Below, one piece after another: positions 1-54,310 of a stretch of DNA of 64,000 bases; position 1 is the stretch's first letter, and each line of letters begins with the position of its first letter. The DNA lies in assembly GCF_001701025.1 (NCBI RefSeq), contig NZ_CP016793.1:2046001-2110000 (forward strand), given 5' to 3'. Source of the stretch: Lentzea guizhouensis (GTDB taxonomy: Bacteria; Actinomycetota; Actinomycetes; Mycobacteriales; Pseudonocardiaceae). The notes below the pieces were generated by a model. That model searched no databases and was not told the DNA's origin. It worked only from the letters and a program-made list of their open reading frames with translations. The position numbers and the translations under genes were made by a program.

Positions 1-1
1 C

Positions 2-100
2 GAACCCGCGCTCCAGCTCTACCGCAAGCGCGGCTTCGTCGAAACCGGCACCCACGAGGTCGCCCCCGGCGTGTCGCTCACCAACCTGAGCCGGCCCTAG
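2..100 (+). CDS. GNAT acetyltransferase, C-terminal fragment
   Basis: Only the last 32 codons are inside the window; the gene begins upstream of base 1. The visible residues include ALQLYRKRGFVETG, which matches the final strand-helix of GNAT N-acetyltransferases, where a Leu-Tyr pair precedes an Arg/Lys-x-x-Gly-Phe turn that contacts acetyl-CoA. The substrate cannot be told. Its TAG stop overlaps the stop of the convergent small gene on the other strand, so the two 3' ends share two bases. Confidence 0.75.
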   Translation, partial: EPALQLYRKRGFVETGTHEVAPGVSLTNLSRP

Positions 101-453
101 GCGAACCCGCGGAGTTCCTCCGGCGCCGCACCTTCGTGCGCGACGCCGTCACGCACGGTCCACGCCGTCGCGTGGCGGCGTTCGTCGGTCAGCAGGAAGA
201 AGCCGACCGGCCGGTCCCCGTCGGAGTCCGCGAGCAACGCCAGCTCCGCGACCTGCGAGCGCAGCCAGTCCACGGACGGCGCGCGGACGTCACCGCCGTG
301 GGACACGTAGAGCGTCCAGTTGAAGGGCCTCGCCGGGACCGCCCAGCCGTCGGAGTACGGGTCGTGGCGGTGGGCGGCCAGCACTTCCTCGACCGCCGCA
401 CGTTGCTCATGCGTGAACTCGAGCCAGCCGCGCACCCCCACGTACGTCCCCAT
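97..453 (-). CDS. Conserved small actinobacterial protein of unknown function
   Basis: A 118-residue soluble protein beginning MGTYVGVRGWLEF, with no signal peptide or membrane segment. I recognise the style (an N-terminal GWLEF segment, a central PFNWTLYVSHGGD segment and a FFLLTDE strand) as a conserved actinobacterial hypothetical family but cannot assign a reaction. The frame stays open upstream to about base 741, but that part is low-complexity Arg-rich and overlaps the end of oppF, so the ATG at 453 is preferred. A TATAGT -10-like hexamer (minus strand, complement of 461-466) lies only seven bases before this ATG, which would give a leaderless or nearly leaderless transcript. Confidence 0.6.
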   Translation of the reverse strand: MGTYVGVRGWLEFTHEQRAAVEEVLAAHRHDPYSDGWAVPARPFNWTLYVSHGGDVRAPSVDWLRSQVAELALLADSDGDRPVGFFLLTDERRHATAWTVRDGVAHEGAAPEELRGFA

Positions 454-47462: not shown

Positions 47463-49235
47463 TCAGCCCTCGACCGCCTCGGCGGCCTCCATCCACGCCG
47501 CCTCGACGTCGGACTCCTCGGCCAGCACGGACTTGAGCTCGGCGTCGAGCTTCAGCAGGCGGTCCGGGTCGGTGGCCGCCTCGGCCAGCGCCGCGTGCAG
47601 CTCGGCCTCCTTCTTGTGCAGCTGCTCCAGCCGCCGTTCCAGCCGGGCCAGCTCCTTGCGGGCGGCGCGCTGGTCGGCGGCGTTGGAGGGAGCCTTCTGA
47701 GTGGCCGGACCGGAGCCCGCGGTCTCCCTGTCGCGCAACGAGTCCCGGCGCTTGAGGTACTCCTCGATGCCGCCGGGCAGGTCGGTCAGGCCGCCGTCAC
47801 CGAACAGCGCAACGACCTTGTCGCACACGCGCTCGACGAGGTACCGGTCGTGCGAGATCACGATCAGCGTGCCCGGCCAGGAGTCGAGCAGGTCCTCCAG
47901 CTGCTGCAACGTGTCGATGTCCAGATCGTTCGTGGGCTCGTCGAGCAGCAGCACGTTCGGCTCGGCCATCAGCAGCCGACACAGCTGCAGCCGCCGCCGT
48001 TCGCCACCGGACAGGTCGGACACCGGCGTCCACTGCTTCTGCGACGAGAACCCGAACCGCTCGCCCAGCTGCGAGGCGGACATCTCGTACTTGCCGAGCA
48101 CGACCCGGCGCGCGACCTCCTCGATCGCCTCCAGCACGCGCATCGAGCCGTCGAGGTCGAGCAACTCCTGCGAGAGGTGCGCGATCTTCACCGTCTGGCC
48201 CTGGATCCGCTTGCCCGTCTCGGGTTCGCGCTCACCGGCCAGCAGCCGCAGCAACGTCGTCTTGCCGGAACCGTTGACGCCGACGAGGCCGACCCGTTCG
48301 CCCGGCCCGATCCGCCAGGTCAGGTCGCGCACGAGCACCCGGTCCGGAATGGACAGTGTCACGTCCTCCAGCTCGATCACCGTGCGGCCCAGGCGCTTCT
48401 TGGCGAACGCGAGCAGCTCGACGTTGTCCCGCAGCGGCGGCACGTCCGCGATCAGCGCCTCGGCCGCCTCGATCCGGTAGCGCGGCTTGGAGGTCCGCGC
48501 GGGCGCACCCCGGCGCAGCCACGCGAGCTCCTTGCGGGCCAGGTTCTGCCGCTTCTCCTCCAGCACGTCCGCGAGCCGGGTCCGCTCGGCGCGGGCGTAG
48601 ATCCAGTCGGCGTAGCCGCCCTCGTACTGCTCGACCTTGCCCTGCACGACCTCCCAGGTGCGGTTGCAGACCGTGTCGAGGAACCACCGGTCGTGGGTCA
48701 CGACGACGAGCGCGCACTTGCGGGCCAGCAGGTGCTCGGCCAGCCAGCGCACACCCTCGACGTCGAGGTGGTTCGTCGGCTCGTCCAGCACGAGCAGCTC
48801 GAGGTCCTGGATCAACGCGGCCGCGAGCGCGACCCGACGCCGTTCGCCACCGGACATCGTGGAGACCACGGAGTCCAGGCCCAGCGCCGTGATCCCGAGT
48901 CCGTCCAAGATGGACCGGACTCGGGCGTCGGCCGCCCACTCGTGCTCCGCGTCGAAGCCCAGCGGGTCGATCACCGCGTTGCGCACGGTCGACCCGACCG
49001 GCAGCTCGGTGCGCTGCGTCACGACCGCCATCCGCAGGTCCCGCGACCGCGACACCCGGCCGTCGTCGGCGGGCTCCACCCCGGCCAGCACCTCGAGCAG
49101 CGTCGTCTTGCCGCCGCCGTTCAGCCCGACGACACCGATCCGGTCGCCCTCGCTGACGCCGAGCGACACGCCGTCGAGCAGCGGCCGGACGCCGAACGAC
49201 TTCGACACGGACTCCAGGTTGACCAGGTTGGCCAT
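47463..49235 (-). CDS. ABC-F ATPase (Uup-like)
   Basis: 590-residue soluble protein with two ABC domains and no membrane part. First Walker A GLNGGGKTT, signature MSGGERRRVAL, Walker B LLVLDEPTNHLD; second Walker A GVNGSGKTT, signature LSGGERRRLQL, Walker B VLLLDEPTNDLD. A linker of charged helix (RTRLADVLEEKRQNLARKEL) joins them, and the C terminus is a coiled coil (KELARLERRLEQLHKKEAEL) as in Uup. ABC-F proteins act on the ribosome or on DNA branch structures. It lies next to ispE as in many actinobacteria, here separated by the TROVE gene. Confidence 0.92.
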   Translation of the reverse strand: MANLVNLESVSKSFGVRPLLDGVSLGVSEGDRIGVVGLNGGGKTTLLEVLAGVEPADDGRVSRSRDLRMAVVTQRTELPVGSTVRNAVIDPLGFDAEHEWAADARVRSILDGLGITALGLDSVVSTMSGGERRRVALAAALIQDLELLVLDEPTNHLDVEGVRWLAEHLLARKCALVVVTHDRWFLDTVCNRTWEVVQGKVEQYEGGYADWIYARAERTRLADVLEEKRQNLARKELAWLRRGAPARTSKPRYRIEAAEALIADVPPLRDNVELLAFAKKRLGRTVIELEDVTLSIPDRVLVRDLTWRIGPGERVGLVGVNGSGKTTLLRLLAGEREPETGKRIQGQTVKIAHLSQELLDLDGSMRVLEAIEEVARRVVLGKYEMSASQLGERFGFSSQKQWTPVSDLSGGERRRLQLCRLLMAEPNVLLLDEPTNDLDIDTLQQLEDLLDSWPGTLIVISHDRYLVERVCDKVVALFGDGGLTDLPGGIEEYLKRRDSLRDRETAGSGPATQKAPSNAADQRAARKELARLERRLEQLHKKEAELHAALAEAATDPDRLLKLDAELKSVLAEESDVEAAWMEAAEAVEG

Positions 49236-49277
49236 CAAAACCTCACGACTAGTAAGAAACTGCCCGGTGAAGGCTAC

Positions 49278-50264
49278 CTACCAGGGCCAAAGCTCCTGCT
49301 CCCCAGCCTCGAACAGACCCAGCGCCCGCTGGCAGCCGGCCTTGGTGCCGTCGTGGCGGTACCGGTACCTCGACACCGAGGCCCACTCCGCGTCCCGGTC
49401 GTCCAGGTCCCAGACGTGCAGTGGCACGTTCCGCGGCACGGACCGGCTCAGCGAGCGGTCGAGCTGCTGGGACTCGGTGATGACGACGACGCGGTCGTGG
49501 CGGCGGTACCGGGTGCGGACGACCTTCAGCAGGGCCCGCTCGCGCTCGGGGGCGACGCCGTGCCGCCGGAACCGCACGGCCTCCGCCCGCTCGCACCTGC
49601 CCAGCACCGTCTCGACGATCCCCTCGGCCCCGTACCGCTCGACCGCCGTCAGGTCGGCCAGCAGCAGCGTGTGGCCGGAAATCCGCGGTGGCGGCGCCGC
49701 CGGTGGCGGGAGCGAGGGCCGGCACTCCTCGGCGTGGCGGTCGTAGCGGCGGTCGATGATCGACCGGAACAGCGCGGACTGGCGTTCGTCGACCGGTTTC
49801 GGGTGCACGAGGTTCAGGACGTCGCCGAACCGGAGGCTGATGAAGGTGAGGTCGTCCTCGATCACGGACTGTTCGGTGTAGAGGCGGCGGACGGCGTCGC
49901 CGATACCGCGCTTCACCGGCTTGGGCACAGCGCGTCCGTGTTTGTAGTGCCAGTAGTTCAGCAGCCAGGTGGGGTCGTTCGGCTCCGCGAGCACGGAGTC
50001 GACCACCTGGCGGGACATGCCGTGCAGGCCGGCGGCCAGGCGGGCCGCGACGAACTCGGCGGCACCCGCGTGCGCGGTGTAGGCGAGGCCGACGTCGTGG
50101 CGGGCCCAGCGCAGCAGCGCGGCGGTCCAGCCGGGGTCCTCGACGGTGCTGCGGCGGACCAGGCCCGCGTAGTGGTCGAGGCGATCGGGGTGGAGGTTCG
50201 GGTGGTTCCCGACCAGGTCGGAGACGACCATCCGGAACAGGTCGCGGCGCAGCTGTCTGCCCAC
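49278..50264 (-). CDS. TROVE-domain (Ro60/Rsr-like) protein, truncated or divergent
   Basis: 328 residues. The N-terminal 150 residues carry TROVE signatures of Ro60/telomerase/vault proteins: LRRDLFRMVVSDLVGNHPN, LVRRSTVEDPGWTAALLRWA, EFVAARLAAGLHGMSRQVVD and PKPVKRGIGDAVRRLYTEQ. The usual vWA domain with an intact DxSxS metal site is absent; a degenerate remnant (GHTLLLADLTAVERYG) follows. Full bacterial Rsr proteins are about 500 residues. Ro60 binds Y RNAs and misfolded RNAs and works with PNPase in bacteria. GGGGGAGG seven bases before GTG 50264 sets the start; GTG 50297 is less likely. Confidence 0.72.
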   Translation of the reverse strand: MGRQLRRDLFRMVVSDLVGNHPNLHPDRLDHYAGLVRRSTVEDPGWTAALLRWARHDVGLAYTAHAGAAEFVAARLAAGLHGMSRQVVDSVLAEPNDPTWLLNYWHYKHGRAVPKPVKRGIGDAVRRLYTEQSVIEDDLTFISLRFGDVLNLVHPKPVDERQSALFRSIIDRRYDRHAEECRPSLPPPAAPPPRISGHTLLLADLTAVERYGAEGIVETVLGRCERAEAVRFRRHGVAPERERALLKVVRTRYRRHDRVVVITESQQLDRSLSRSVPRNVPLHVWDLDDRDAEWASVSRYRYRHDGTKAGCQRALGLFEAGEQELWPW

Positions 50265-50292
50265 CTGGTCGCCTCCCCCGGCACGTGCGGGA

Positions 50293-50363
50293 GCCACGCG
50301 TGCCCCGAGAACTCGAGATCGCCCCCGTTTGGAACGGGCGCTTCACACCGGGGCACGCGTGGC
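50293..50363 (-). other. Nested inverted repeat beside the TROVE gene: structured RNA or ispE terminator
   Basis: Arms GCCACGCGTGCCCCG (50293-50307) and CGGGGCACGCGTGGC (50349-50363) form 15 perfect base pairs, extendable to 18 with one mismatch. The 41 bases between contain an inner hairpin CCCGTT-TGG-AACGGG. The shape, a long stem closing an internal loop plus hairpin, is that of Y RNAs, which are typically encoded next to Ro60-type genes. I could not identify a Ro-binding consensus, so a terminator for ispE remains possible. Confidence 0.45.
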
Positions 50364-50374
50364 GCCACCGAATT

Positions 50375-51340
50375 CTAGGCGTGGACCTCGGGCGGCGTCG
50401 GCTTCGGCTCTTCGGTCGCGATGACACGCGCACCGGGCACCGGGCCCTGTGCCACGCGCACGGTGCGACACACACCCGCACCTGCGAGCTCTGCCGCGAC
50501 GCGCACGGCCGTGTCGTTGTCCTCGCACAAGAACGCCGTCGTGGGACCGGAACCGGACACGATGCCGGCCAGCGCGCCCGCGTCGACACCCGCGCGCAAC
50601 GTGCGGCGCAGGTTCGGGCGCAGTGACACGGCGGCGGCCTGCAGGTCGTTGCCCAGCAGCAACGCGAGCTGGCGGGGGTCGCCGGAGGACAGGCCCTCCA
50701 GGACCGCCTCGACCTGGCCGACGCGGGGCGGGTCTCCGTCGGTGCGCAGGCGGTCGAGCTCGTCGAACACGTCCGGGGTGGACAGTCCACGCCGGTCGAA
50801 CGCCAGCACCCAGTGGAACTGGTGCCGCGCCAGCACCGGCACGATCCGCTCACCGCGGCCGGTGCCGAGCGCGGTGCCGCCGTAGAGGCAGAACGGGACG
50901 TCGGCGCCGAGCTTGCCGGCCAGCTCGGCCAGCTCGTCACGGCTGATCTCCAGCCGCCACAGGGAGGCCAGGCCGACCAGGGTGGCCGCGGCGTCGGCGC
51001 TGCCGCCCGCCATGCCGCCGGCGACCGGGATCGCCTTGCGGATGACCACGCGGACCTTGGGGTCGTCCGGGTCCTTGCCGACGTGCGCGGCCAGCAGGCG
51101 CACGGCACGCCAGGCTAGGTTGGAGGCACCGGTGGGCACCTGGTCGGCGCCCTCGCCGTGGACCTCGACACCGGGCTCGTCGGCGACGGCGACGGTGACC
51201 TCGTCGGCCAGCGAGAGCGCCTGGAAGATGGTCACCAGGTCGTGGTATCCGTCCGGTCGCACGTCGCCGACGGCCAGGTGCAGGTTGACCTTGGCCGGGA
51301 CGCGGACCGTGACCGGGGGTGGGACGACTGCGAGCACCAC
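50375..51340 (-). CDS. ispE: 4-diphosphocytidyl-2-C-methyl-D-erythritol kinase
   Basis: 321-residue GHMP kinase of the MEP isoprenoid pathway. Substrate-binding [23 protein letters not shown] at the start, the ATP loop [20 protein letters not shown], and the C-terminal [13 protein letters not shown] motif are complete. In M. tuberculosis ispE lies next to ksgA; here the metNIQ importer is inserted between them. Start GTG 51340 (a second GTG follows immediately). Confidence 0.96.
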
Positions 51341-54007: not shown

Positions 54008-54131
54008 CGCGCGTCAAAGGACTTTGAGAAGGCGCCTTAGACGAGGTGGCGACGACATGCAGAAGTGGTGCGACGGCACTGGTCGACGACTCGCCGGCGC
54101 GTCAGCATTCGCGAAGTACCCACGTGATCCT

Positions 54132-54219
54132 CCATCGGTCCTGGCGTTAGCACCTGCCCGCATCCAGCGGGTGGTTGCTGCGACGTCGTAGAGCCAGGTC
54201 TCTCAGTCGCTCCGGATGG
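54132..54219 (-). promoter_or_regulatory. SAM-clan riboswitch upstream of metNIQ
   Basis: On the minus strand the core reads CTGGCTC, then GCAACC (complement of 54173-54178), a 5-bp helix CCCGC/GCGGG (54157-54171), AGGTGCTAA (complement of 54147-54155) and GCCAG pairing back to CTGGC. The ends CCATcCGG and CCGATGG close a P1 helix. GCAACC and AGGTGC(C/T)AA are the conserved ligand-site sequences of S-box-type aptamers. Sitting directly upstream of a methionine importer, it should turn metNIQ off when S-adenosylmethionine is high. SAM-I versus SAM-I/IV type is undecided. Confidence 0.72.
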
Positions 54220-54310
54220 CAGTTAGCAGTCAACCGGACGGACGTTCGGTTGCGCAAGCCAGATTCCGATTCGTTCGACAGATCACACTGTTGGCCGAAG
54301 GATCGCCGGA

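Follow-up and report, generated by a model that had tools for sequence, protein, structure and literature searches.

A short Ro60 homologue and a minimal Y-type RNA form a probable reduced Ro/Y pair beside ispE in Lentzea

The DNA analyzed here (the window; 64,000 nucleotides (nt), positions 2,046,001 to 2,110,000 of contig NZ_CP016793.1) belongs to Lentzea guizhouensis, whose genome of 9.998 Mb is designated G000. On its minus strand lie, in this order, ispE, an RNA element, a gene encoding a protein of 328 amino acids (aa) and an ABC-F gene (coordinates in Table 1). The protein and the RNA element probably constitute a dedicated reduced Ro/Y pair, composed of a short Ro protein (short Ro) and a minimal Y RNA (mini Y RNA).

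Sequence comparison with phmmer tied the 328-aa protein to TROVE proteins of about 520 aa, with the best match to a 524-aa TROVE protein (E = 1.7e-58) and identities of 42-53% with the full-length proteins listed, in agreement with an earlier note that had called it TROVE/Ro60-like from the window sequence alone. When compared to full-length Lentzea Ro, residues ~3-182 showed 42-49% identity and the last ~85 residues 28-36%. Because both ends match, the loss is internal, and residues 209-353 of the protein labelled P0018 (145 residues) were aligned against 19 residues in short Ro; the N-terminal TROVE segments described in the earlier note are present, and, as a correction to it, the C-terminus is kept too. 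Ten helices followed by an alpha/beta domain run along the protein, and the second half of the HEAT-repeat ring is gone. The alignment also revealed no intact vWA metal ion-dependent adhesion site (MIDAS; DxSxS...T...D), as the earlier note had proposed: in most short forms DTSxS is replaced by DLxAV and TDEQ by TExQ, and the GNGTxT segment is gone. The histidine H187 of Ro60 is required for Y RNA binding. His154 of short Ro aligned with residue 187 of structure 1yvp and was invariant in all 21 rows of the alignment.

Profile scans were less informative. The search against Pfam returned no family for short Ro even at E ≤ 1, TROVE (PF05731) included. Pfam TROVE matched 30 of the 35 aligned members, which is the number of full-length rows, and in the first aligned member the match spans residues 269-331, within the 209-353 stretch that is reduced in the short form. 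No family was returned by PADLOC, NCBIfam gave a single match below its cut-off (E = 0.13), and PHROGs gave two weak unrelated matches (E = 0.006 and 0.099). Judged from its sequence, the 328-aa protein is homologous to Ro60/TROVE proteins and has lost an internal segment, and by its ring and MIDAS it is not a bona fide Ro60/Rsr. A recent duplication of the standard Lentzea Ro was considered as its origin and is not favoured, since the tree sets the short forms apart (midpoint root, long branches; placement uncertain).

The RNA element contains a 15-bp perfect stem within an 18-nt inverted repeat (arms 50290-50307 and 50349-50366), an internal loop and an inner hairpin, an architecture that the earlier note had drawn correctly. 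The minus strand of 50265-50380 folded at -65.6 kcal/mol (z = -3.5), and only one of 200 shuffles was as good, which bears out the thermodynamic check proposed there. The internal loop was nearly invariant among the six genomes that carry the element and ranked among its best conserved parts. Two-sided compensatory changes were found in 4 of the 30 pairs of the element, a count reached by 1 of 500 shuffles, and the covariation score was equalled by 10 of 500. The Ro-binding consensus, which had gone unrecognised in the earlier note, is legible as a Y core, CCGGUGYGAAGC ... GCGAUCUCGARUUCUCGG.

The relationship to Y RNAs was supported by a covariance model (R2) built from 17 compact Y RNAs that precede full-length Ro genes and containing no copy from an ispE locus. 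On the window, R2 ranked the element first and as the sole match at E < 1 (26.9 bits, E = 0.0012; runner-up 12.9 bits, E = 1.2), consistent with the earlier proposal of a Y-RNA-like element beside a Ro gene. R2 recovered four of the five other ispE-locus copies, so that a terminal stem with a conserved Ro-binding core was found in five of the six copies; all six adjoin a short Ro gene. Across 24 Lentzea genomes, the R2 matches listed at E ≤ 0.2 all fell at Y loci of full-length Ro genes, at ispE loci (G006, G002, G001, and G017) or at a cluster in G021, and three further matches (G006, G019, and G023; E 0.26-0.55) are unexplained. Among 150 genomes of the family, 21 had a match at E ≤ 0.01, and a same-strand TROVE reading frame was present at all 12 loci fetched from this search (seven from Lentzea, five from three other genera). 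A second model (R1), built from the element copies themselves, gave exactly one strong hit (E ≤ 2.3e-18) per genome in the six carriers, and its best match in the 18 other Lentzea had E = 0.079; R1 failed to find standard Y RNAs, presumably because the stem sequence dominates it. Scanning with the pattern CGAAGC...GCGATCTCGA returned four of the six elements plus chance matches. The Rfam search proposed in the earlier note gave no match at the element, the YrlA model (RF02553) included, and the element has no tRNA-like head. According to its sequence the element is a Y-type RNA, and by Rfam it is not YrlA. Taking both parts together, homology of the protein to Ro and of the RNA to Y RNA is highly probable.

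Elsewhere, genome G000 carries two TROVE genes of full length, both preceded by a Y RNA. The first (G000:C1:3928400-3931600, L141) has tandem Y RNAs, one of them YrlA-like, while the second (G000:C1:664300-667400, L142) has a single compact Y RNA, and a search of it with the pattern D[TVS]SxS found no match. Rfam YrlA matches, with E from 1e-8 to 2e-5 and below the gathering score, lay beside a full-length Ro gene in 20 Lentzea genomes and, within the same E range, in G021 with no such gene beside them; because the YrlA model is loose, with matches at E ≤ 1 in 12 of the 14 control genomes, only the low-E matches beside Ro genes were used, weaker ones elsewhere carrying no meaning. These standard loci contain tandem RNAs that share the CCGGUGCGAAGC 5' core and usually a GCGAyyUUGAUCUCGG 3' core, one being compact without a tRNA-like module and one YrlA-like with the module, and R2 adds a third in most loci. 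The inner stem of the compact RNAs showed covariation (14 two-sided cells), which none of 500 shuffles reached. A UACUUC segment sits about 8 nt after GCGAAG in the standard Y RNAs, and its CUUC could pair with GAAG; in five first-hit Y RNAs from outside Lentzea, the segment was UACUUC in three and UCCUUC in two.

The short gene and the element occurred together in six of the 24 Lentzea genomes (G000, G001, G002, G006, G010, and G017); carriers include Lentzea xinjiangensis and L. waywayandensis. The other 18 yielded neither of the two, and a DNA search for the element there gave a best E of only 0.005. The ispE gene was found in 23 of the 24 genomes, G011 being the exception. In the 17 genomes with ispE and no short Ro, the ABC-F gene started 2-172 nt past the last ispE codon in 15; in G018 the distance was 547 nt, and in G007 no ABC-F start turned up over about 690 nt. 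The element was not seen after ispE in any of the 17, over the stretch up to the ABC-F start in the 15 and over 260 nt in G018 and G007. Given this co-occurrence and the ispE loci of non-carriers, short Ro and the element seem to be gained or lost as one unit. No stop interrupted the short Ro match in any of the six genomes, and YN00 ratios of nonsynonymous to synonymous substitution rates (dN/dS) were 0.066-0.237 in 12 of the 15 pairs of short Ro genes, three pairs being not computable, a range that suggests purifying selection on the gene.

Bacterial Ro60 orthologues (Rsr) with Y RNAs are represented by the Salmonella rsr-yrlBA operon and the Deinococcus Rsr/Y/PNPase system, as outlined in PMC7790460 and PMC4726728. 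As in the systems outlined there, a TROVE-type gene adjoins an RNA whose terminal stem bears the Ro-binding site. Unlike them, the Lentzea short Ro has neither the second ring half nor a MIDAS, and its RNA precedes the gene and lacks the tRNA-like head that YrlA has. The full-length Lentzea loci (e.g., G000:C1:3928937-3931117) share the RNA cores, the order of RNA and then gene, and a homologous protein; this full-length Ro, however, has 527 aa from an MSKFN start and a DTSGS MIDAS, its Y RNAs are tandem, one with a YrlA-like tRNA module, and all cores counted in such loci have UACUUC. The TROVE structures 9kop and 9l5y (title: Ro60 dimer from Thermus phage phiLo) also differ from short Ro in having about 500 aa, with a complete ring and vWA. 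Among the literature titles and abstract openings listed, which are a weak test of novelty, none dealt with a truncated bacterial Ro or with a mini Y RNA devoid of its head, and no literature pairing 'Lentzea' with 'Y RNA' was found.

In the proposed mechanism, the mini Y RNA would be reduced to the Ro-binding stem and internal-loop core, with a short hairpin as its cap, and short Ro would retain the half of the HEAT ring that recognises Y RNA, including the H187 equivalent, with a shrunken vWA domain without metal site. The simplest reading is that the H187-type surface of short Ro mediates binding to the mini Y RNA, and physical pairing of the two is likely. The RNA, 24 nt ahead of the start codon here, would probably be transcribed as the leader of the short Ro mRNA. 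The resulting open half-ring particle without MIDAS should be unable to thread misfolded RNA through a closed ring, and would therefore most likely regulate, either by controlling its own synthesis through the leader, by competing with full-length Ro for Y RNAs, or both. Two such halves could also assemble into a ring. Leader-type autoregulation is plausible in mini and standard loci alike because of the spacing between RNA and start codon (24 nt vs. 50-55 nt, the latter from the end of the last Y core to the full-length Ro start, measurable in 2 of the 11 standard loci tried). A specific regulatory role of this kind is put forward tentatively, with somewhat more doubt than confidence. A more speculative extension, which we regard as rather unlikely, is that Ro and Y RNA were reduced together into an open mini-ribonucleoprotein that acts as a regulator or antagonist of full-length Ro/Y, with UACUUC being read by the lost part of Ro; the latter is suggested by the parallel losses, of half the ring and the metal site in the protein and of UACUUC and the head in the RNA.

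Several results weigh against a functional Ro/Y pair. In 20 full-length-Ro loci, where Y cores were counted as CGG[TC]GCGAA[GT] followed further on by CTCGG, UACUUC followed 38 of 38 standard cores and was found in none of the six mini copies, so a feature required by Ro may be missing from the mini Y RNA. R2 did not find the G010 copy at E ≤ 10, which has GCGCTGC for GCGAAGC, and at the scale of the 24 Lentzea genomes it missed the window copy as well as that of G010. In the covariation test that the earlier note had called for, the two-sided changes stood out from shuffles and the number of pair types did not, being equalled by 247 of 500; the covariation is modest, because just six element sequences were available to compare. 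The ten top rows of the structure comparison of short Ro were all Ro60/TROVE, a fold match that is not fully independent because the input alignment for AlphaFold2 held full-length Ro rows. Finally, NG86 dN/dS values of 0.34-0.59 over the 15 pairs indicate weaker constraint.

Among the alternatives, the element may be a cis-acting leader only, i.e., a Y-RNA mimic in the 5' untranslated region that does not occur as a small RNA of its own and by which short or full-length Ro proteins would repress or stabilise the short Ro mRNA. The 24-nt distance to the start codon in the window genome and the spacing at the two measurable standard loci fit such a leader, as do the six minimum-energy folds, in which flanking bases, not always the same ones, pair past the main stem towards the ribosome-binding region. 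Standard loci, however, share the arrangement with several tandem RNAs, one of them with a tRNA-like head, that look like separate small RNAs. An exclusively cis-acting element is possible, with the odds against it; the two possibilities are not exclusive. That the pair is what remains of a once complete Ro/Y locus now in decay is improbable: the losses in the protein (half the ring and the metal site) and in the RNA (the head), the 396-aa intermediate form carried by Lentzea tibetensis, the patchy occurrence and the NG86 values would suit decay, but the short Ro match is free of stops, the YN00 ratios are low, the stem shows compensatory changes, and the C-terminus is retained: of the 17 short forms fetched, 16 end in WPW and one in WPF. 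An ispE terminator with a coincidental neighbouring gene, the competing explanation of the earlier note, is very improbable. In its favour, the element is a very stable hairpin that starts 6 nt past the stop codon of ispE, and G003 (L099), G016 (L108), and G013 (L111) have long perfect hairpins of about 26-31 bp, unrelated to the element, between ispE and the ABC-F gene. Against it, the element shows no terminator-like site and no T-tract after its stem, was not seen after ispE in the 17 Lentzea with ispE and no short Ro nor by DNA search in the 18 non-carriers, and has an internal loop, needless for a terminator, that is among its best conserved parts and matches Y RNAs.

The roles of bacterial Ro proteins and Y RNAs are still largely open, and a natural pair cut down to its recognition parts, as the dedicated short Ro and mini Y RNA would be, is informative because in it Y-RNA binding would be uncoupled from both RNA threading and the metal site. 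The pair also draws attention to UACUUC as a second, unexplained motif in Lentzea Y RNAs. Since no Rfam family picks up the mini Y RNA, more Y-type RNAs are probably unannotated.

Table 1. Position and predicted character of the features at the ispE locus of the window.
Feature	Position	Strand	Description
Short Ro paralogue	49278..50264	minus	GTG start, 328 aa
Short Ro, residues ~1-176			Predicted first half of TROVE/HEAT ring, invariant His154 (aligned to Ro60 H187)
Short Ro, residues ~177-193			Pro-rich linker
Short Ro, residues ~194-328			Predicted reduced vWA domain without MIDAS
Mini Y RNA element	50289..50368	minus	~18-bp terminal stem, conserved asymmetric internal loop, short inner hairpin
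Y-module 5' core	50340..50351	minus	CCGGUGUGAAGC; CCGGUGCGAAGC in 4 of 6 copies, matching standard Lentzea Y RNAs
Y-module 3' core	50305..50322	minus	GCGAUCUCGAGUUCUCGG; usual standard form GCGAyyUUGAUCUCGG
Inner hairpin	50321..50341	minus	Stands where standard Y RNAs have a longer head (with UACUUC) or a tRNA-like head
Spacer, 24 nt	50265..50288	minus	GGGGGAGG ribosome-binding-like sequence between element and GTG start; without T-tract
ispE	50375..51340	minus	Upstream neighbour, same strand as short Ro gene
ABC-F type ATPase gene	47463..49238	minus	Downstream neighbour of short Ro gene

Other observations were made along the way. The G021 cluster (G021:C2:1172800-1176400, L140) holds three tandem Y RNAs (3' cores at 655, 792, and 938 on the minus strand; three R2 matches), which appear to be orphans, with no TROVE frame within 3.6 kb and no match in the protein search of that genome; the open reading frame downstream of them has an HNH-like start by eye and a sub-cut-off MarR-type match in its second half. 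In G012, ispE (G012:C39:15761-16721, L116/L117) consists of two overlapping matches, perhaps owing to a frameshift or assembly error. Elsewhere in the window, an S-adenosylmethionine (SAM) riboswitch (RF00162, 61.3 bits) was detected at 54129-54222 on the minus strand, upstream of an ABC ATPase gene whose top NCBIfam match was MetN, below the cut-off.
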